Source of the DNA: a virus
Length of the DNA stretch: 39,426 nucleotides
Reading direction: 5' to 3' (one strand)
Virus record (IMG/VR): IMGVR_UViG_3300030382_000777
Location: 1-39,426 of that record
The notes under the pieces are model-generated. The model did not search any database. It was given only the letters and a program-made list of their open reading frames with translations, and was not told the origin of the DNA. The position numbers were made by a program, and so were the translations under genes. Each line of letters opens with the position of its first letter. Within the stretch, counting starts at the first letter, position 1. Shown one piece after another: positions 5,879 to 39,426 of the stretch.

Positions 5879-5965
5879 GGAGAGATGGCTGAGAGGCTTA
5901 AAGCGACTCCCTGCTAAGGAGTTATAGATGTAAATCTATCGAAGGTTCGAATCCTTCTCTCTCCG
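5879..5965 (+). tRNA. tRNA-Ser (anticodon GCT)
   Basis: 87-nt class II tRNA. Acceptor GGAGAGA pairs with TCTCTCC (5958-5964), discriminator G. Anticodon stem ACTCC/GGAGT closes loop CTGCTAA, giving anticodon GCT, which reads AGC and AGU. A long variable arm (TAGAT...ATCTA) is present, as expected for Ser. T arm is GAAGG/CCTTC with TTCGAAT. CCA is not encoded. AGT and AGC serine codons are common in the phage genes, fitting a codon-supply role. Confidence 0.96.
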
Positions 5966-5968
5966 CTT

Positions 5969-6039
5969 GCGAGATTAGTTTAGCGGTAAAACTGTAGTCT
6001 TCCAAACTATTGTCATCGGTTCGATTCCGATATCTCGCT
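5969..6039 (+). tRNA. tRNA-Gly (anticodon TCC)
   Basis: 71-nt tRNA three bases after tRNA-Ser. Acceptor GCGAGAT pairs with ATCTCGC (6032-6038), discriminator T as in bacterial tRNA-Gly. D stem GTTT/AAAC, anticodon stem GTAGT/ACTAT with loop CTTCCAA (anticodon TCC, reading GGA and GGG), T arm ATCGG/CCGAT with TTCGATT. CCA is not encoded. The two tRNAs probably come from one transcript that continues into the capsid leader. Confidence 0.96.
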
Positions 6040-7708: not shown

Positions 7709-7734
7709 GGGGGGCTTCGGTCTCCCTTTTTTTT
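7709..7734 (+). terminator. intrinsic terminator after the capsid cluster
   Basis: GGGGGGC (7709-7715) and GTCTCCC (7720-7726) form a 7-bp stem (two G-T pairs) closed by the very stable TTCG tetraloop, followed by eight T (7727-7734). This is a classic factor-independent terminator. T7 has its T-phi terminator at the same map position, just after gene 10, where partial read-through lowers expression of tail genes. Confidence 0.93.
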
Positions 7735-30241: not shown

Positions 30242-30265
30242 CCCTGGCTCTAAGTATACAGGGGA
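30242..30265 (+). repeat. 24-bp promoter-like repeat, copy A (copy B inside RNA polymerase gene)
   Basis: Directly after the terminase stop. It shares 23 of 24 bases with 35629-35652; the common core is CTCTAAGTATACAGGGGA. CCCCTG (30241-30246) and CAGGGG (30259-30264) can also form a hairpin. An AT-rich TAAGTATA followed by a G run resembles the layout of phage-type promoters (T7: CTCACTATAGGGAGA). Confidence 0.8.
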
Positions 30266-30291
30266 AGGAAGGGTGGACCTTCTCCTCCAAG

Positions 30292-30330
30292 GGAGGAATC
30301 TCGTCTTAACAGACATCAATTCCTCCTTTC
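30292..30330 (+). terminator. terminator after large terminase gene
   Basis: GGAGGAAT (30292-30299) pairs with ATTCCTCC (30319-30326); inside, GTCT pairs with AGAC. TTTC follows, then an AT-rich stretch. The upstream TCCTCC (30283-30288) can also pair with GGAGGA (30292-30297), so two exclusive folds are possible. It probably ends the late transcript. Confidence 0.6.
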
Positions 30331-32257: not shown

Positions 32258-32292
32258 ATTCACAGTCAAATCATCGCTGAGTATGTTATAAT
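32258..32292 (+). promoter_or_regulatory. motif copy 1 (ATTCACAGTCAA) followed by a TATAAT box
   Basis: Motif ATTCACAGTCAA at 32258-32269; TATAAT at 32287-32292, preceded by TG one base upstream (an extended -10). There is no good -35 hexamer at 16-18 bp, and the motif occupies that place. This could be an extended -10 promoter for the KTSC gene, or the TATAAT may be coincidental. Confidence 0.6.
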
Positions 32293-32334
32293 GAAGGATT
32301 CAATAATTTCCTTCAACCTTAACAATTATTATTT

Positions 32335-32652
32335 ATGTTTACTATGTTAATTACTGTACCTAACCGCACATCAACTGCAATCGAATCATTACAAGTTGAT
32401 GCATTAAACTCTCAAGCTTATGTAACATTCAAGAATGGTAATTCATATGCTTATGGTAATGTATCCAAGCGTGCAATCGTTAACGTATTGTTTAATCCTG
32501 ACGTATCATTAGGTTTCTGGGTTAACAACAACCTAGTACAATCTGAAAGAGCGATAGTATTAAATGGTGATGAGTTTGACTACAAAGCTATTACTTCAAC
32601 ACCATACTTGAAAGAGTTAGAAACTGAAGTTAAACTACCTTCCTTTGTATAA
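32335..32652 (+). CDS. KTSC-like domain protein, 105 aa
   Basis: The segment VPNRTSTAIESLQVDALNSQ, then AYVTFKNGNSYAYGNVSKRA and SLGFWVNNNLVQSER matches the small KTSC domain (a short beta-sheet protein ending in a helix; named after similarity to lysyl-tRNA synthetase C-terminal parts). Its molecular role is unproven. ATG 32335 was chosen; an in-frame ATG 32344 is equally possible because neither has a strong ribosome site. Early-region gene. Confidence 0.65.
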   Translation: MFTMLITVPNRTSTAIESLQVDALNSQAYVTFKNGNSYAYGNVSKRAIVNVLFNPDVSLGFWVNNNLVQSERAIVLNGDEFDYKAITSTPYLKELETEVKLPSFV

Positions 32653-32697
32653 CTAATTCAAGTTTAATCAGTTCACCTATTCTTATTACTTAACAGC

Positions 32698-32847
32698 ATG
32701 AATTACAACGTTTCAACTAAACAGAATCTAGTTCAACTTTTAGAAATAAAAGATAAAGATCTAGAGAAATTAGATGAGTTAAAAGAACAACAATTAATTC
32801 TATTCTGGTTATTATTTATTGTAGCAGGAATAGGGTTTAGTTTCTAA
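32698..32847 (+). CDS. small tail-anchored membrane protein, 49 aa
   Basis: ATG at 32698, TAA at 32845-32847. Helical charged N-terminal part (NLVQLLEIKDKDLEKLDELK) and one C-terminal transmembrane helix (LILFWLLFIVAGIGFSF). This tail-anchored arrangement puts the charged part in the cytoplasm. Early gene of unknown function. Confidence 0.6.
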   Translation: MNYNVSTKQNLVQLLEIKDKDLEKLDELKEQQLILFWLLFIVAGIGFSF

Positions 32848-32865
32848 CACTAACTCAACTTAAAT

Positions 32866-32886
32866 TGACTCTTCATTGAGTCATTT
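32866..32886 (+). terminator. hairpin before tRNA-Asp, terminator-like
   Basis: TGACTC (32866-32871) and GAGTCA (32878-32883) form a 6-bp stem with a 6-base loop, followed by TTT. It stops two bases before tRNA-Asp and may be a weak terminator or processing signal. Confidence 0.5.
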
Positions 32887-32888
32887 CT

Positions 32889-32960
32889 GATCCTATAGAT
32901 TAACGGTTAAATCATTACACTGTCACTGTAAAGATAAGGGTTCAATTCCCTTTAGGATCG
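32889..32960 (+). tRNA. tRNA-Asp (anticodon GTC)
   Basis: 72 nt. Acceptor GATCCTA pairs with TAGGATC (32953-32959), discriminator G as expected for Asp. D stem GATT/AATC, anticodon stem TTACA/TGTAA with loop CTGTCAC (anticodon GTC), T arm AAGGG/CCCTT with TTCAATT. CCA is not encoded. It stands alone in the early region, far from the Ser/Gly pair, and is bracketed by two small hairpins. It reads GAC and GAT; GAT is very frequent in this genome. Confidence 0.93.
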
Positions 32961-32961
32961 T

Positions 32962-32977
32962 TGACACTTCGGTGTCA
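32962..32977 (+). terminator. TTCG hairpin after tRNA-Asp
   Basis: TGACAC and GTGTCA form a perfect 6-bp stem around TTCG; TTGTT follows. It may be a weak terminator or protect the 3' end of the tRNA precursor. Confidence 0.55.
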
Positions 32978-32986
32978 TTGTTAACA

Positions 32987-33000
32987 TTATTCACAGTCAA
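32987..33000 (+). promoter_or_regulatory. motif copy 2, TTATTCACAGTCAA
   Basis: Intergenic copy that ends six bases before the ATG at 33007. No sigma70 boxes accompany it. If this is a promoter the message would have almost no leader; if it is an RNA element it overlaps the ribosome-binding region. Confidence 0.75.
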
Positions 33001-33006
33001 ATCCTT

Positions 33007-33414
33007 ATGACTCAACATGCATTCAACTCTGTAAAAGAATCATACGACATTGACACTCTTCGTGAAATTGTCGAATATGGTTGTCAGGGTGGGGCAGCTA
33101 ATCAGCACATCTATTATTCTGATACTCTTACCTTCTTCGATCACTTCGAGAATGAGATAATTGAGTACATCGCTGATACTTTAGGTGATGAATTCAATGA
33201 AGAGTTATGGAATAACAACCCATGTAATTGGACAGGGTATAAGAATGACACAGTATGGACATTTATTGAACTCGTAGCATCACAATTAGTTGATGAATAT
33301 GAGGACACAACATGTCAAGAACTATCTGAATTAGATGAGGAAGTATATCCTAATCTAACAGAACTAGCTAACACTGAATGGGGTCAATCTCACTTAGAGA
33401 TAATAACCGCATGA
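33007..33414 (+). CDS. acidic early protein, 135 aa
   Basis: Sequence begins MTQHAFNSVKESYDIDTLRE, then YGCQGGAANQHIYYSDTLTF and DTVWTFIELVASQLVDEYED; strongly acidic with scattered Trp and Cys. From memory, similar acidic proteins occur in cyanophage early regions, without a tested role. Acidic early proteins can be DNA mimics (anti-restriction or nuclease inhibitors), a possibility only. The stop overlaps the next start (ATGA). Confidence 0.68.
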   Translation: MTQHAFNSVKESYDIDTLREIVEYGCQGGAANQHIYYSDTLTFFDHFENEIIEYIADTLGDEFNEELWNNNPCNWTGYKNDTVWTFIELVASQLVDEYEDTTCQELSELDEEVYPNLTELANTEWGQSHLEIITA

Positions 33415-33461
33415 CATCAATCATCGTATGGGTATGTTTAAGCATACTCATTTTTATTTAA
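33411..33461 (+). CDS. membrane micropeptide, 16 aa (candidate)
   Basis: ATGA overlap with the preceding stop; encodes MTSIIVWVCLSILIFI, a single hydrophobic helix. The coupling and clean membrane character support it, but at 16 residues chance cannot be excluded. Confidence 0.3.
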   Translation: MTSIIVWVCLSILIFI

Positions 33462-33486
33462 TTAACAATCAACCACGTTTAATTCT

Positions 33487-33624
33487 ATGCTTAAATGTTA
33501 TTCACAGTCAAGTCCGCATATAGATAGTAATAAACTAAGTAGAATATATAGTATAGTAACTAAACCTAAACAGAAGAAGTATAAACCAATTCGTACACAT
33601 TACAACGTTCACTTATTCGGTTAA
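33487..33624 (+). CDS. basic small protein, 45 aa, contains motif copy 3
   Basis: ATG at 33487, TAA at 33622-33624. Sequence MLKCYSQSSPHIDSNKLSRI, ending KKYKPIRTHYNVHLFG; basic. Codons 5-9 (TAT TCA CAG TCA AGT) contain motif copy 3 (33500-33511). It could be a true gene that contains the element, or the element could be a promoter with a later start. No family is recognised. Confidence 0.45.
   Translation: MLKCYSQSSPHIDSNKLSRIYSIVTKPKQKKYKPIRTHYNVHLFG
33500..33511 (+). promoter_or_regulatory. motif copy 3, ATTCACAGTCAA
   Basis: Exact core with the extended upstream part TGTT, giving TGTTATTCACAGTCAAG. It lies in the gap between the 135-aa and 48-aa genes, within a small candidate ORF. Confidence 0.75.
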
Positions 33625-33630
33625 CTAACA

Positions 33631-33777
33631 ATGAATAAATTAGCTTTAGATTATCCAATTACATTAACTCTTGAATCTGATGATGTTGAGTATCTATTAT
33701 CATTCTTAGATGAAGAACCTCAATATACAAGAGCTAATCGGATTAGAGAAGAGATCTTATTACAAACCTATGACTAA
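33631..33777 (+). CDS. small acidic protein, 48 aa
   Basis: ATG at 33631 six bases after the upstream stop; TAA at 33775-33777. Sequence MNKLALDYPITLTLESDDVE, then YLLSFLDEEPQYTRANRIRE. Soluble, acidic, alternating beta then helix. Unknown function; part of the close-packed early run. Confidence 0.55.
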   Translation: MNKLALDYPITLTLESDDVEYLLSFLDEEPQYTRANRIREEILLQTYD

Positions 33778-33783
33778 TTACAA

Positions 33784-33960
33784 ATGAAACAGTATCAAAT
33801 TACATTGAAGATTAAAACCGCTATCTTACCTAAAGATATCATATGGTTTGTAACACAAAAGCTAAAAGGTGTACTTCCTATTATATCAATTAACTATGAA
33901 GTTATTGAGGATAGAGATACATCAGTTGAACATCATGGAGGAGTTAATGATAACAATTAG
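33784..33960 (+). CDS. small early protein, 58 aa
   Basis: ATG at 33784, TAG at 33958-33960. Sequence MKQYQITLKIKTAILPKDII, then WFVTQKLKGVLPIISINYEV, ending in an acidic/His tail. It resembles a small alpha-beta fold with one helix between strands. No recognised family. Overlaps the next start by 14 bp. Confidence 0.55.
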   Translation: MKQYQITLKIKTAILPKDIIWFVTQKLKGVLPIISINYEVIEDRDTSVEHHGGVNDNN

Positions 33961-34030
33961 TTTAATGATTGCATTAACTTGTATAATATTAATTGGAGTA
34001 GAATTAAACAATGACAGTAACACCAAATAG
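33947..34030 (+). CDS. membrane micropeptide, 27 aa
   Basis: ATG at 33947 has a good ribosome site (GGAGG 6-7 bases upstream) located inside the previous gene; TAG at 34028-34030. Encodes MITISLMIALTCIILIGVEL, one transmembrane helix, and a short polar tail. The good ribosome-binding site makes translation credible. Confidence 0.45.
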   Translation: MITISLMIALTCIILIGVELNNDSNTK

Positions 34031-34133
34031 AATACATAACTCAGGTAAACAACTCAAACCTAAGTTAAAACCTGTTGCTATTAGACAATCTAAAGCACGA
34101 TTGAAAGCGTTAATTAACAAATTAAAAGATTAA
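34011..34133 (+). CDS. small basic protein, 40 aa
   Basis: ATG at 34011 within the end of the micropeptide; TAA at 34131-34133. Sequence MTVTPNRIHNSGKQLKPKLK, then RQSKARLKALINKLKD; strongly basic, helical C-terminal half, possibly nucleic-acid binding. Unknown family. Confidence 0.5.
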   Translation: MTVTPNRIHNSGKQLKPKLKPVAIRQSKARLKALINKLKD

Positions 34134-34150
34134 TTAACGTTTCTTTTTTA

Positions 34151-34164
34151 TTATTCACAGTCAG
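34151..34164 (+). promoter_or_regulatory. motif copy 4, TTATTCACAGTCAG
   Basis: Intergenic, 11 bases before ATG 34175, preceded by a T-rich stretch and followed by the GAGCGAAGCTC hairpin. Forms the first half of a 42-bp tandem duplication with copy 5. Confidence 0.75.
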
Positions 34165-34174
34165 AGCGAAGCTC

Positions 34175-34366
34175 ATGGACGCAGAAGAAAACCCTTTCAC
34201 AGTCAGCACTCAGCACATGGACGCACAACATTATCTAGTCACACTACAAAGTGGACGCACATTCGTATTACAATCAGGATACGATGTATATCAAGCAGCG
34301 TATGATGCTTATGATGAAGCATGTCTTATGGACGACTACCTAGTTAACGTTGAACCTATCTCATGA
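34175..34366 (+). CDS. small early protein, 63 aa, with duplicated start region
   Basis: Begins MDAEENPFTVSTQHMDAQHY, then LVTLQSGRTFVLQSGYDVYQ, and an acidic end. Two ATGGACGCA starts lie in frame 42 bp apart (34175 and 34217), each preceded by TCACAGTCAG at the same distance, so residues 1-14 come from a tandem duplication of the control element plus start. The second start (49 aa) may be the original one. Its stop overlaps the next ATG (ATGA). Confidence 0.6.
   Translation: MDAEENPFTVSTQHMDAQHYLVTLQSGRTFVLQSGYDVYQAAYDAYDEACLMDDYLVNVEPIS
34195..34206 (+). promoter_or_regulatory. motif copy 5, TTTCACAGTCAG, inside a gene
   Basis: Second member of the duplicated pair; precedes the in-frame internal ATG at 34217 by 10 bases. 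Read as Phe-Thr-Val-Ser in the gene's frame. Confidence 0.7.
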
Positions 34367-34686
34367 GAAAACCTAAGTATTACCCTAACAACTGGAGAGA
34401 GTTCAGTGATGCACCATCTGAGCTATTCGAATCAATTGAATACGAAGAGTTCATGGACTGGAAGGTTGGTGGTTATGAAATACCATCATCCGTAGCTGCT
34501 ATTGTACGAGTAAGAGACTTAAATACTGGTAGAGTTAAAGAGCATGTTTACAGATACAAAAATGCAGCTAGAACTAAAACAAAGAAACTCATGGATTCTG
34601 GTAACAAAGAGATTACCATAGTTCAACGAGATTCTGTACATTTTATTTATCCCAAGGAGAAAGAGTATGACATCTTCGATGAGTGA
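34363..34686 (+). CDS. hypothetical early protein, 107 aa
   Basis: ATGA overlap with the upstream gene. Sequence begins MRKPKYYPNNWREFSDAPSE, then YEEFMDWKVGGYEIPSSVAA and a basic stretch (RYKNAARTKTKKLMDSGNKE). It contains several Tyr and Trp and no membrane segment. From memory such proteins occur before the RNA polymerase in cyanophages; function unknown. Overlaps the next gene by 20 bp. Confidence 0.65.
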   Translation: MRKPKYYPNNWREFSDAPSELFESIEYEEFMDWKVGGYEIPSSVAAIVRVRDLNTGRVKEHVYRYKNAARTKTKKLMDSGNKEITIVQRDSVHFIYPKEKEYDIFDE

Positions 34687-34837
34687 CACTAATGGTATTA
34701 CTAAAATACTTGAATACCAAAAGAAAGCACTAGAAGCTATTAAGAAGACTCACCCACACAGAGATGAGATCATTAAATTACTAAATGAACAAGTAAACGA
34801 CGATCTTCGAACAAATGCCTACCCCTGCACAAATTGA
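34667..34837 (+). CDS. small helical protein before RNA polymerase, 56 aa
   Basis: ATG at 34667 follows AAGGAG by about 8 bases, one of the clearest ribosome sites in the window; TGA at 34835-34837. Sequence MTSSMSDTNGITKILEYQKK, then ALEAIKKTHPHRDEIIKLLN; helical. It overlaps the RNA polymerase start by 23 bp, so polymerase translation is probably coupled to it. Function unknown. Confidence 0.6.
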   Translation: MTSSMSDTNGITKILEYQKKALEAIKKTHPHRDEIIKLLNEQVNDDLRTNAYPCTN

Positions 34838-37148
34838 TGAACAACATGAATTAGAAAGACGCCAAATCAAGGGCGGTCTTGATAAACTACACAAGGATAC
34901 TCGTACCTTGGAACAAAAAGAGTATGCTTCTGCTACAGTTTATGGACGCTGCTCTATTGATCAATTACTACCTATTGTTATTGAAGGTATCAACCTTAAG
35001 TATGAAGAGAGAAAGAGTTTTGGCTTGAATGGTGTGAATAGACACTTACTTGAAAGTCATGTAATGATATTAGATTCACAGTCAAGCGCAGCAATAGCAG
35101 TAAAACGGTTTTTCGATAAAGTTTTCTCATTTAAAAAAGGTGATAGTTTAATTACTGAAGTAAGTGACGCTATTGGTAGCGGTATAGAAGCAGAAGCGCA
35201 GATGAGACATTATGAGACTGAAGCACCAGCACTCTTACACATCTTAAAGGAAAGATATTGGCATGAATCTAAAGGCACAGAGCAACGCTTAACAGCGATA
35301 CAAACTGTTATCAATAGATATGATATAAAGAAATGGGAATCATGGGGACGAGCAATTGATATCAAGGTTGGTGCATGGTATGCTGATGTGATATGTGATG
35401 CAACTAAATGGTTTACTAAAGAAACTATCTATCGTAGGAAATCTAAAGAAACTATTATTGTACCAACCCCTGAGTTCTATAAAAACAAGGATGAAATCTT
35501 AAATTTTGCTGAACTATTCAGTCCTTTAACATTGCCTATGCTCGTAGAACCACAGGATTGGAGTAACACTGAATCTGGTGGTTATTACCTAAATGCCTTA
35601 ACAAAATGTCACAAACTAGTCCGTCGTACCCTGCCTCTAAGTATACAGGGGAGAACACCTTTAACCTTTTTGAATAAGATTCAGAAGGTTGGGTACAGGT
35701 TAAACCCCTTCATTGTCAAGGTCGCTGAGACCTTAGATGAAAAAGGAATAGCGGTTGGTAAGTTCAGACCGATAATAGAACACCCACTACCGAATAAACC
35801 TGTTGATATAGAAACAAACCCGGATGCTAAGCAAACCTATAAAAGGTTAGCTGCACAAGTTCACGATAAACGGAACCAAGAGTTCAGAAAATCATGCAGA
35901 ACACGTATGACAATGAATGCTCTTCGTGAATTTAAAGAAAGAGATAGATATTATATTCCGTGGTCTTTCGATTACCGAGGTAGAACATACCCTATTCCCT
36001 CCTTTCTAACACCTCAAGACTCTGACTTTGGAAAAAGTCTAATTAGATTTGCTGATGAAGGTGAGATAAATGAGGAGTGGTTAGCTTTTCAAGTAGCTAC
36101 TACATATGGTCTAGATAAAGAGACTATTGAGAAGCGTAAGAAGTGGACAAGAGATAATCATTCACTAATAACTAGAATAGTTAAAGATCCTATAGATAAT
36201 ATTGGGTCTTGGGAAAAGACAGACGAACCGTTTCAATTTTTAGCAGCATGTGAAGAGTATTATTCATGTGTTATTTCACAGTCAAGAAGTACGACTGGTT
36301 TACCTGTAGCTATAGATGCTACATGTAGTGGTTTACAGATCTTAGCTGGATTAGCTAAGGACCAGAGCACAGCACAACTCGTCAATGTGTTGCCTTCTGC
36401 TGAACCACAAGACGCATATGCAAGGGTTGCAGAGGCTGCTAAGCCTCATATACCTGAATATTTACATAAAGCATGGGATAGGAAGTCGGTCAAACGTACC
36501 GTCATGACCATACCCTACAATGCTAAACCTTACTCAAATCGTTCTTACATCAGGGACGCACTAAAAGAGAAAGGTATAGAGATAGAGAATGAGGACTTAA
36601 CTGTAGTTGTTAATGCAGTTAGAGAAGCTATGAATAAAGAGTTTCCAGGTCCGATGAAGGTTATGAAATGGATAGAAGATGAAGTCACCAAAGCTATTAA
36701 ACGTGGAGATAAAGAAATTCATTGGACAACACCATCTGGATTTCGAGTTGTACAACGTTTAATGAAACCAGATTGTAAGTATATTCACCTACGTTTGTTA
36801 GGTAAATGTAAGGTTTGGGCTAAATTAGGTGACAAGGATGAAGTAGATCTTATGCATCATAAGAATGCTACTGCACCTAATCTTATTCATTCACTAGATG
36901 CTAGTCTATTACACATGGCTGCAACTAAATTCAATAACCCAATTGCTCTAATACATGATTCAGTATTATGTCGTGCAAGTGATATGGATGAACTGTCTAA
37001 TATAGTCAGGGAAACATACATGCACCTATTCGCTGAACATGAATATTTAACCCGTTTCGCTCAACACATAGGAGCTGAAACACCGCCACCGATCATAGGA
37101 GACTTAGAACCCTCCGAAGTGATTGACTCAACTTATTTTTTCTGTTAA
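34815..37148 (+). CDS. T7-type single-subunit RNA polymerase
   Basis: 777 residues; T7 polymerase is 883, cyanophage forms are shorter. Catalytic motifs: SFDYRGRTYPIPSF (about 383-396); motif A with Asp501 in AIDATCSGLQILAG; motif B with Lys560 and Tyr568 (SVKRTVMTIPY, spacing as T7 Lys631 and Tyr639); the PNLIHSLDAS element; motif C Asp715 in ALIHDSVL. The C terminus is STYFFC, unlike T7's FAFA. It transcribes replication and late genes from phage-specific promoters. The gene contains motif copies 6 and 7 and copy B of the promoter-like repeat. Confidence 0.98.
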   Translation: MPTPAQIDEQHELERRQIKGGLDKLHKDTRTLEQKEYASATVYGRCSIDQLLPIVIEGINLKYEERKSFGLNGVNRHLLESHVMILDSQSSAAIAVKRFFDKVFSFKKGDSLITEVSDAIGSGIEAEAQMRHYETEAPALLHILKERYWHESKGTEQRLTAIQTVINRYDIKKWESWGRAIDIKVGAWYADVICDATKWFTKETIYRRKSKETIIVPTPEFYKNKDEILNFAELFSPLTLPMLVEPQDWSNTESGGYYLNALTKCHKLVRRTLPLSIQGRTPLTFLNKIQKVGYRLNPFIVKVAETLDEKGIAVGKFRPIIEHPLPNKPVDIETNPDAKQTYKRLAAQVHDKRNQEFRKSCRTRMTMNALREFKERDRYYIPWSFDYRGRTYPIPSFLTPQDSDFGKSLIRFADEGEINEEWLAFQVATTYGLDKETIEKRKKWTRDNHSLITRIVKDPIDNIGSWEKTDEPFQFLAACEEYYSCVISQSRSTTGLPVAIDATCSGLQILAGLAKDQSTAQLVNVLPSAEPQDAYARVAEAAKPHIPEYLHKAWDRKSVKRTVMTIPYNAKPYSNRSYIRDALKEKGIEIENEDLTVVVNAVREAMNKEFPGPMKVMKWIEDEVTKAIKRGDKEIHWTTPSGFRVVQRLMKPDCKYIHLRLLGKCKVWAKLGDKDEVDLMHHKNATAPNLIHSLDASLLHMAATKFNNPIALIHDSVLCRASDMDELSNIVRETYMHLFAEHEYLTRFAQHIGAETPPPIIGDLEPSEVIDSTYFFC
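35074..35085 (+). promoter_or_regulatory. motif copy 6, ATTCACAGTCAA, inside RNA polymerase gene
   Basis: Exact core; read as Ser-Gln-Ser (TCA CAG TCA) in the polymerase frame at about residue 88. Confidence 0.7.
35629..35652 (+). repeat. 24-bp promoter-like repeat, copy B
   Basis: Identical to 30242-30265 at 23 of 24 positions, followed by GA (GGGGAGA). In the polymerase frame it encodes Leu-Pro-Leu-Ser-Ile-Gln-Gly. A coding sequence and an intergenic sequence sharing this much points to a DNA- or RNA-level function. Confidence 0.8.
36274..36285 (+). promoter_or_regulatory. motif copy 7, TTTCACAGTCAA, inside RNA polymerase gene
   Basis: Extended form GTTATTTCACAGTCAAG (36270-36286), one extra T relative to the consensus. 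Encodes Ile-Ser-Gln-Ser just before motif A. Could serve as an upstream site for the SSB-endonuclease-primase genes. Confidence 0.7.
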
Positions 37149-37345
37149 TGTATTCACCATTTGATAGCTTCTTCTCACCTCCTACAATAGTAGTGGTCTC
37201 TGAAGAGAGATTACAAGCTGCTGAAAGAGAGATGAAGCAACGTAAATTAAAAGATGTAGACGCTAAGATTGAAGAACTCAATGCTTATCGTGCAACTCTA
37301 GTTAAAGAGCTTGCTCCTGCTAAGGAGTCAACCGACAATGGCTAG
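37148..37345 (+). CDS. small coiled-coil protein, 65 aa
   Basis: Start overlaps the polymerase stop by one base. N terminus hydrophobic/aromatic (MYSPFDSFFSPPTIVVVSEE), then a helix with heptad pattern (RLQAAEREMKQRKLKDVDAK, then IEELNAYRATLVKELAPAKE). Its end overlaps the SSB gene by 8 bp. A small coiled-coil protein between polymerase and SSB; function unknown. Confidence 0.65.
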   Translation: MYSPFDSFFSPPTIVVVSEERLQAAEREMKQRKLKDVDAKIEELNAYRATLVKELAPAKESTDNG

Positions 37346-37907
37346 AACTATACATACAACTGACAAACCAGTAACACTAGAAGGATTCCAAGCAGTACTA
37401 GCTCCTAGTAAGTTTGGTTATTCCTTATCGGCTATAGTTGATAGTAATACTATCGACAAGCTAGAAAATGAAAGGTCTGAAGTCCTTAAGTGGGCTGAGT
37501 CCAAGCTCAAGAACCCTAAGCGTAGTACTCTCAAGCCAGAACCTTGGGAAGAAGTTAGTGAAGGACAATATAAAATAAAGTTCTCGTGGTCAGAAGATAA
37601 ACGACCACCTGTAGTAGACACAGAAGGAGTGCCTGTAACCGATGTTAAAACACCATTATATGCAGGGTCTACGGTCAAGCTGGGTTTCTATCAGAAGCCT
37701 TATATCCTCCGAGATGGAGTTACCTATGGTAGTTCTCTTAAGTTGGTTGGTGTACAGGTTGTCTCAGTAAAAGGTGAGGCTGGCGTTGACACTGGTGACT
37801 TAGATGCAGATGCGGTAGCTGAACTATTCGGTACTACATCAGGCTTTAAGACTGGTGATCCTAACGTAACACCTACCACCACTAATGACGAAGAAGAAGA
37901 CTTCTAA
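37338..37907 (+). CDS. single-stranded DNA-binding protein, gp2.5-like
   Basis: 189 residues from ATG 37338, which follows AAGGAG by 11 bases; an upstream TTG (37311) is less likely. Segments RTIHTTDKPVTLEGFQAVLA and YKIKFSWSEDKRPPVVDTEG, and an acidic C-terminal tail ending TNDEEEDF with terminal Phe, the hallmark of T7 gp2.5, which docks polymerase and helicase. It coats ssDNA and coordinates replication and recombination. Overlaps the endonuclease gene by 23 bp. Confidence 0.93.
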   Translation: MARTIHTTDKPVTLEGFQAVLAPSKFGYSLSAIVDSNTIDKLENERSEVLKWAESKLKNPKRSTLKPEPWEEVSEGQYKIKFSWSEDKRPPVVDTEGVPVTDVKTPLYAGSTVKLGFYQKPYILRDGVTYGSSLKLVGVQVVSVKGEAGVDTGDLDADAVAELFGTTSGFKTGDPNVTPTTTNDEEEDF

Positions 37908-38319
37908 AGAAGAATCACTTGAATGGGCACAACAAGCCTATGATAAGTTAAAGAATAAGAAACCTATTAAATTTAGATCTGGTCTTGAAGAGAAGGTCGC
38001 TGATCTTCTTGAAGGACTAGGTGTATCATATCAATATGAATCTGAGAAACTCTCTTATACTATCGAGCATAATTACACTCCCGATTTTCTTTTGCCTAAC
38101 TATGTCTACTTGGAAACAAAAGGATACTGGGACGCAGCAGATCGGCGTAAGGTATTGGCAGTCAAGCGAGCTAATCCAGACATAGATTTAAGAATGGTGT
38201 TTCAATCTCCATTCAATAAGATAAGTAAGAAAAGTAAAACAACGTATGCTAAATGGTGTGACAAACACGACATACCATGGACTGCATACCATAATATTCC
38301 ACTCGAATGGTTGATCTAA
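37885..38319 (+). CDS. endonuclease I (Holliday junction resolvase), gp3-like
   Basis: 144 residues (T7 gp3 is 149). PD-(D/E)xK catalytic core: FRSGLEEKVADLL (Glu35/Glu36), NYTPDFLLPN (Asp67) and YLETKGYWD (Glu77, Lys79). Resolves branched DNA before packaging and helps break down host DNA. Overlaps both SSB and primase-helicase genes. No lysozyme gene (T7 3.5) lies between this gene and the primase, since they overlap by 13 bp. Confidence 0.95.
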   Translation: MTKKKTSKEESLEWAQQAYDKLKNKKPIKFRSGLEEKVADLLEGLGVSYQYESEKLSYTIEHNYTPDFLLPNYVYLETKGYWDAADRRKVLAVKRANPDIDLRMVFQSPFNKISKKSKTTYAKWCDKHDIPWTAYHNIPLEWLI

Positions 38320-39426
38320 CTAACGAGTTCGTAAGGCACATGCCTTGCGGCAATTGTGGCTCATCAGATGGTAATTCATTGTACTCTGATGGGCACACCT
38401 ACTGCTTTGTCTGTCACGAAAGAACAGGCGACAATGATGTTATTCACAGTCAAAGAATGACTAAAACTGTACACCTCACTGGCTCAGCCGAACGGTTGCA
38501 TAAAAGAAATATATCTGAGAAGACTAATCAGTTCTTCCAAATCTACAGGGACGGGGACGTGTTACGATTCCCTTACCATGATGAATCAGGTATATTATTA
38601 GGTGTTAAAACCAAAACAAAAAAGAAAGACTTTCGCTATGAAGGAGTTTCCACTGATACCTTATTCGCTCAGCATAAGTTTCCTAATACTGGTAAACGTA
38701 TTGTTGTTACTGAAGGTGAACTAGATGCAGCATCTTGTTACGAAGCTATGCCAGGATGGCCTATGGTTTCCTTACCACATGGTGCTGCTAGTGCGAAGAA
38801 AGATATACAAAAACAAATCCCATTGTTCCAAGGTTATGAAGAGATTGTATTATTCTTCGATGGAGATGACGCAGGGCGTAAGGCGGCTGAAGAGGCGGCA
38901 TCAGTATTACCGCCTGGCAAGGTATCCATCGCTCGCCTTGAGGGCTTTAAAGACCCCTCAGAGGCGTTACAAGCTAACGATGCTGAAGCGATTCGAAAGG
39001 CTATATGGGACGCTAAACCCTTTAGACCTGATGGCATCGTCGATGGCAAGTCGCTCCTCAAGACAGTTACGACACCGCAACCACCATTTGACCATGAATA
39101 CCCCTTTGAAGGACTTAACAAGAAACTACACGGGATCAGGTACGGAGAACTTACTACATTTACTGCGGGCACTGGAGCCGGAAAAACATCAATCATGCGT
39201 CACATTGCAACTGACTTACTCCAGAAGGGGGAAACAGTTGGGATCTTGGAGCTTGAAGCAAGCAATAGGAGAACAGCACTTGGACTGATGTCCACAGCTG
39301 TTGGAAAAAACTTAGCTATTGGAGAACACACTGAAGATGAGCTTAAAGAAGCTTTCAATAATTCCATTGCTAATTGGAATTTGTATATGTTTGATGGGTT
39401 CGGAAGTTTTGACCCCGATCTTATCT
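38307..39426 (+). CDS. primase-helicase, gp4-like (partial, cut by window end)
   Basis: 373 residues visible with no stop. N-terminal zinc ribbon: Cys14, Cys17 (MPCGNCGSSDGNS) and Cys33, Cys36 (YCFVCHERTG). TOPRIM primase: VVTEGELDAAS (Glu135) and LFFDGDDAGR (Asp184, Asp186). Helicase Walker A TAGTGAGKTS (Lys292). The family makes RNA primers and unwinds DNA at the fork. Start is ATG 38307, inside the endonuclease end. Met51 (38457) lies four bases after motif copy 8 and could start a helicase-only form like T7 gp4B (from Met64). Confidence 0.97.
   Translation, partial: MVDLTNEFVRHMPCGNCGSSDGNSLYSDGHTYCFVCHERTGDNDVIHSQRMTKTVHLTGSAERLHKRNISEKTNQFFQIYRDGDVLRFPYHDESGILLGVKTKTKKKDFRYEGVSTDTLFAQHKFPNTGKRIVVTEGELDAASCYEAMPGWPMVSLPHGAASAKKDIQKQIPLFQGYEEIVLFFDGDDAGRKAAEEAASVLPPGKVSIARLEGFKDPSEALQANDAEAIRKAIWDAKPFRPDGIVDGKSLLKTVTTPQPPFDHEYPFEGLNKKLHGIRYGELTTFTAGTGAGKTSIMRHIATDLLQKGETVGILELEASNRRTALGLMSTAVGKNLAIGEHTEDELKEAFNNSIANWNLYMFDGFGSFDPDLI
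38442..38453 (+). promoter_or_regulatory. motif copy 8, ATTCACAGTCAA, inside primase-helicase gene
   Basis: Exact core in extended form TGTTATTCACAGTCAAAG. Reads Val-Ile-His-Ser-Gln in the gp4 frame, a different frame from copies 6 and 7. Three bases separate it from the in-frame ATG at 38457. Confidence 0.75.

Follow-up and report, generated by a model that had tools for sequence, protein, structure and literature searches.

We describe a short, asymmetric motif that marks early and replication genes in a T7-like cyanophage and its relatives, a genuine signal that runs one way and is tuned by lineage. A separate, genome-specific element present in two copies, rather than the many-copy motif, is most likely the main start signal of the phage RNA polymerase. 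Computation directly established the existence of the motif, its restriction to one strand and one region, the letter that varies by lineage, its turnover, and the presence of the two-copy element at the positions of the Syn5 promoters. T7-like cyanophages are abundant ocean viruses, and Syn5 was the only one for whose polymerase a mapped promoter was found in the literature searched. The analysis offers two sequences for testing, of which the two-copy element is the candidate main promoter and the many-copy motif a candidate second signal.

The stretch of DNA analysed (the window) is the first 39,426 nt of a complete record of 43,141 bp, and on sequence grounds the source phage is a T7-like marine cyanopodovirus. 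The window encodes endonuclease I, capsid protein, terminase and ThyX. Its RNA polymerase is of the T7 single-subunit type: PF00940 and PF14700 both score above cut-off, and T7 RNA polymerase chains and structures match at E ~1e-56. Identity to the S-CBP1 and P-SSP7 enzymes is ~60%, and to the Syn5 enzyme 38%.

The 10-mer TTCACAGTCA occurs eight times in the window, all on the plus strand and at the coordinates of the original prediction (Table 1), and the complete record adds a ninth, also on the plus strand, within the exonuclease gene beyond the window (at 42067). All nine are confined to early and replication genes and, as had been claimed, lie both between and within genes; a frame check bore out the use of all three frames. 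The expected absence from the remaining ~33 kb also held, with no copy in the first 32 kb and none on the minus strand of the window. Nine one-strand copies compare with six or fewer for the commonest 10-mer in 200 dinucleotide-preserving shuffles, and the probability that nine random sites cluster within such a short arc is ~6e-5; the excess is weaker when two mismatches are allowed (13 vs 5.8 expected). The two sites in the RNA polymerase gene are unchanged in three relatives, which is weak evidence alone, as 17% of all 12-nt windows are unchanged too. The sequence TTATTCACA, previously noted at 7733 as the nearest match elsewhere, is indeed present but does not count as a motif copy; it is kept only in L109, L110 and L121 (capsid 97-99% identical) and lost in L111 (94%) and L122 (87%), and a late-promoter role was rejected for this lack of conservation beyond the nearest capsid relatives.

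Table 1. Motif copies, two-copy element and RNA polymerase gene in the window (10-mer start, first base of TTCACAGTCA)
Feature	Coordinates	Strand	10-mer start	Context
Two-copy element CTCTAAGTATACAGGGGA	30248..30265	+		Right-end copy, 8 bp after terminase stop; probable main promoter
Motif copy ATTCACAGTCAA	32258..32269	+	32259	Intergenic, 20 bp 3' of terminator-like hairpin
Motif copy ATTCACAGTCAA	32989..33000	+	32990	Between tRNA-Asp (32888-32961) and ORF starting 33007
Motif copy ATTCACAGTCAA (TGTTATTCACAGTCAAG)	33500..33511	+	33501	3' of hairpin 33428-33451
Motif copy ATTCACAGTCAG	34153..34164	+	34154	First of pair 42 bp apart
Motif copy TTTCACAGTCAG	34195..34206	+	34196	Within ORF 34175-34366; second of pair 42 bp apart
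RNA polymerase gene, T7-type single-subunit	34815..37148	+		Product is best candidate motif reader
Motif copy	35074..35085	+	35075	Within RNA polymerase gene; identical in L009, L010, L011
Two-copy element CTCTAAGTATACAGGGGA	35635..35652	+		820 bp into RNA polymerase gene; position matches mapped Syn5 promoter
Motif copy TTTCACAGTCAA	36274..36285	+	36275	Within RNA polymerase gene; identical in L009, L010, L011
Motif copy	38442..38453	+	38443	5' part of primase/helicase gene; codes H-S-Q

A motif scan of the complete genome and related phages, suggested as a check in the original prediction, showed the motif to be conserved in relatives, on one strand and in the early/replication region. The scan pattern (TCACAnTC[AG] or CACAnTCATC), which was derived from these same phages, was applied to 57 dereplicated loci whose polymerases are <90% identical. 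Between -6 and +7 kb of the polymerase gene (~510 kb) there are 246 plus and 6 minus copies, with peaks in the early genes, the polymerase gene, the 5' part of the primase gene and near the end of the DNA polymerase gene, whereas beyond these limits (~464 kb of the same loci) the counts are 13 plus and 21 minus. The same 10-mer is found, only on the plus strand, in IMG/VR contigs with 87-88% identical polymerases and in one with 62%. Reference genomes, each searched separately for its own repeated k-mers, yielded CACACTCATCA in P-SSP7 (5 copies) and P-SSP2 (4), TTCACACTCATA in S-CBP4 (4), TTCACAATCGA in NATL1A-7 (5), and AACACATTCAC in S-RIP1 (4). Four genomes were fetched after the pattern was made: P-SSP3 fits it, P-GSP1 has a tandem cluster, S-CBP3 has three early and three late matches, and 9515-10a is without it. 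Versions particular to P-GSP1 (TCACACACAT) and 9515-10a (CCACCATCATC) occupy similar places, and the latter type holds across the 9515-10a clade, at 42 plus to 1 minus. The motif takes the form T-CACAxTCA in the clade of the window phage and CACCATCATC in P60 and the 9515-10a clade, and a CACCATCA form is common to Syn5 – where early copies are present – P60, S-CBP2 and 9515-10a. Among 4096 gapped 6-mers, CACAnTC ranks 16th for strand asymmetry over early and replication regions and 5th in early genes alone; coding bias dominates the summed asymmetry, which was dropped, and early genes alone were therefore used. The motif was not reported in the literature searched, which was open-access and mostly excludes subscription papers.

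Position x of the motif is A, C, G or T across lineages, with a within-genome agreement of 0.727 compared to 0.339 +/- 0.022 when shuffled. At the primase site the letter matches the rest of its own genome (0.83 vs 0.39); other lineages encode H-T-H, H-N-H or H-I-H there, tracking their motif letter, and some place the motif in another reading frame. Motifs differ between phages that share a host, as for P-SSP7 and P-GSP1 on MED4, and S-RIP2 and S-CBP42 on WH7803, and the host is therefore unlikely to be the reader. Because x agrees within a genome and differs between lineages even on one host, the reader is probably a phage-encoded protein. The inclusion of replication genes in the region would suit a replication, primase or recombination site, but we regard such a role as highly improbable: the copies span ~13 kb on one strand only, which lagging-strand priming would not give; the GTC needed by T7 primase is not kept, because x can be any base; and the primases of S-CBP42 and P60 are equally Syn5-like, with different motifs.

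The copies were originally proposed to be promoters of the phage's own single-subunit RNA polymerase for its replication genes. Much of this survives, in that the sites look functional, are directional, conserved and lineage-tuned, occur only over early and replication genes, and have the polymerase as best candidate reader, but the main-promoter role does not, as the two-copy element fills both places of the Syn5 promoters in this genome (near +810 of the polymerase gene and by the right end) and has one copy near +810 in 23 of 24 genomes, whereas the motif does not occupy these places. Across 209 motif sites there are no conserved downstream bases beyond the core and no TATA-like or AT-rich stretch, and start codons follow the motif no oftener than they follow random early positions. 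A host sigma-70-type promoter was rejected, since lack of conserved downstream bases leaves no -10 at a fixed distance, and sigma-70-like sites number 35 compared with 31.5 when shuffled; nor was there any excess of the motif as a -35 on the minus strand.

The invariable mRNA sense of the motif, and its indifference to frame and gene start, would be consistent with an RNA-level signal in early and replication mRNAs, either cut or bound by a phage RNase or RNA-binding protein. This is unlikely, as accessibility is unbiased (mean unpaired probability of 0.599 for native and 0.598 for shuffled flanks) and no candidate reader was identified. A signal like the T7 class II pause site, at which the elongating phage RNA polymerase would pause or terminate, could similarly account for a one-way and probably polymerase-linked motif that is without initiation context, but we consider it quite unlikely; no T-run follows the motif at the 209 sites, and the copies intervene between the probable promoter at 35635 and the late genes that it must serve.

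The two-copy element was found by searching 24 cyanopodovirus genomes for sequences in the polymerase gene that recur elsewhere in that genome. One copy lies at +792 to +865 of the RNA polymerase gene (about +810), and the second is outside the gene, usually near the right end; DSL-LC07 is the sole exception at 12 exact bases. The copies agree within a genome and their 5' part varies between genomes, with (G)TATACAGG(G/A) present in most of the clade. In Syn5 the element is ATTGGGCACCCGTAAGCAAG and contains the published promoter ATTGGGCACCCGTAA, and in P-SSP7 it is AACCCCTACGTATACAGGGG, at +814 of the polymerase gene and just after the terminase gene. In the window phage CTCTAAGTATACAGGGGA has no third copy within three mismatches. 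The right-end copy is followed by a conserved leader with two hairpins (30248-30320), and AAGGGTGGACC recurs after the right-end copy in many relatives. The strong promoter of KP34 likewise contains TACAGG (PMC6834552).

A 2024 screen predicted AAAATTCTTCAAGTTTACAA for the P-SSP7 RNA polymerase, and reported all 16 enzymes of low similarity to T7 to be inactive, with promoter prediction named as the limit (PMC11475235). The full 20-mer given there has no exact match in P-SSP7 (L090), and its first 12 nt occur only at 35121, 35720, 36295 and 37200, in the tail-fibre region.

Which phage protein reads the motif can be narrowed by comparing phages that share a form. Syn5, P60, S-CBP2 and 9515-10a have in common the RNA polymerase, SSB, endonuclease I, primase, DNA polymerase and exonuclease, and two nucleotide-metabolism genes; no Syn5 early protein has homologues in all of the other three. 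In S-TIP28, the SSB, primase and DNA polymerase are 77%, 75% and 73% identical to those of Syn5, but the RNA polymerase only 36%, and the S-TIP28 motif is ATCTCTCATC, unlike that of Syn5. Among the core proteins tested, RNA polymerase distance is tracked best by letter distance, although this covariation is weak (r 0.25, partial 0.21) and confounded by phylogeny. As a counter-example, S-CBP42 and Syn5 have polymerases of 54% identity, closer than those of P60 and Syn5, yet the S-CBP42 motif is CCACGAGAG; P60 and 9515-10a share CACCATCATC despite widely divergent polymerases and two-copy elements. Given the shared set, the divergent S-TIP28 polymerase and the weak correlation on one side and S-CBP42 on the other, the single-subunit RNA polymerase is the best candidate reader, but is not proven. 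Correlating the motif letter with specificity-loop residues did not single out the loop (best rank 35 of 759 windows). S-TIP28 (L273) appears to have had its RNA polymerase replaced relative to Syn5 (L092), as most replication proteins are 66-90% identical between the two.

Mycobacteriophage L5 has asymmetric, one-way stoperator sites scattered in its early region, and the motif resembles these in being asymmetric, one-way and early. A binding site for a phage-encoded regulator that acts on host RNA polymerase transcribing the early and replication genes, by roadblock or anti-termination, would fit sites that are scattered and unrelated to gene starts, confined to the region probably transcribed by the host polymerase, and lineage-specific in sequence, with agreement within each genome. 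We nonetheless think this somewhat unlikely: in contrast to L5, the comparison of early proteins among the CACCATCA-form phages turned up neither a repressor gene nor a shared regulator, there being no early protein of Syn5 with homologues throughout the group. A conserved 107-aa early protein (phrog_9569; function not assigned), encoded at 34363-34686 in the window, is present in 18 of 24 genomes, with a weak profile match in 9515-10a, but is absent from Syn5-type phages and so is not common to all phages of this form. It was rejected as the motif reader, as it is missing from MPP-A type phages and is unrelated to Syn5 gp14.

The reading we favour, tentatively, is that the motif is a second, weak class of site recognized by the phage RNA polymerase. 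On this view ATTCACAGTCAA is the version found here of a directional signal that extends across the clade and marks early and replication genes in T7-like cyanophages; its reader is phage-encoded and most likely the single-subunit RNA polymerase itself. The motif sites may support weak initiation of a class-II-like kind, raising the level of early and replication transcripts, with bulk and late transcription predicted to start from two strong promoters of other sequence, at 35635 in the polymerase gene and at 30248 at the right end. A precedent is KP34, whose RNA polymerase has two unrelated promoter classes, one of them weak and within its own gene (PMC6834552), although there is one weak promoter in KP34 compared to nine candidate sites here. 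Counting against a second class, no more than two promoters, both of other sequence, are reported for the Syn5 RNA polymerase (PMC3950665).

The Syn5 promoter ATTGGGCACCCGTAA resembles the motif in being short and one-way, in lying in the polymerase gene of a T7-like cyanophage, in containing CAC, and in needing no late-gene copies. However, it has two copies (at +809 of the polymerase gene and by the terminase gene) as opposed to nine, and its positional counterpart here is CTCTAAGTATACAGGGGA, not the motif. In T7, several class II promoters are spread over the replication genes, all in one direction and some of them intragenic. The motif is alike in these respects, but has no T7-like core or start region, has copies also upstream of the polymerase gene, and is without late-gene copies. 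It is conceivable, and we hold this with some reserve, that T7-like cyanophages have two separate one-way systems, in which two strong promoters serve the polymerase and a lineage-tuned signal of many copies, not itself a promoter, would control the switch from host to phage transcription over the early and replication genes.

Several other features of the window were observed. A motif copy closely follows the tRNA-Asp gene of the early region, and tRNA-Ser and tRNA-Gly genes precede the capsid gene (5879-6039). A second one-way early motif, CA[AT]GGACG[CT], is present at 34174-34182 and 34216-34224, and in relatives occurs 4.5 kb upstream of the RNA polymerase gene. GGACGC was rejected as part of the first motif, as the spacing between them varies. 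In relatives CA[AT]GGACG[CT] numbers 114 plus to 0 minus within -6 to +2 kb of the polymerase gene, and 1 plus to 1 minus in 356 kb of late region. The letters of this second motif are constant across lineages, and its spacing to start codons varies.
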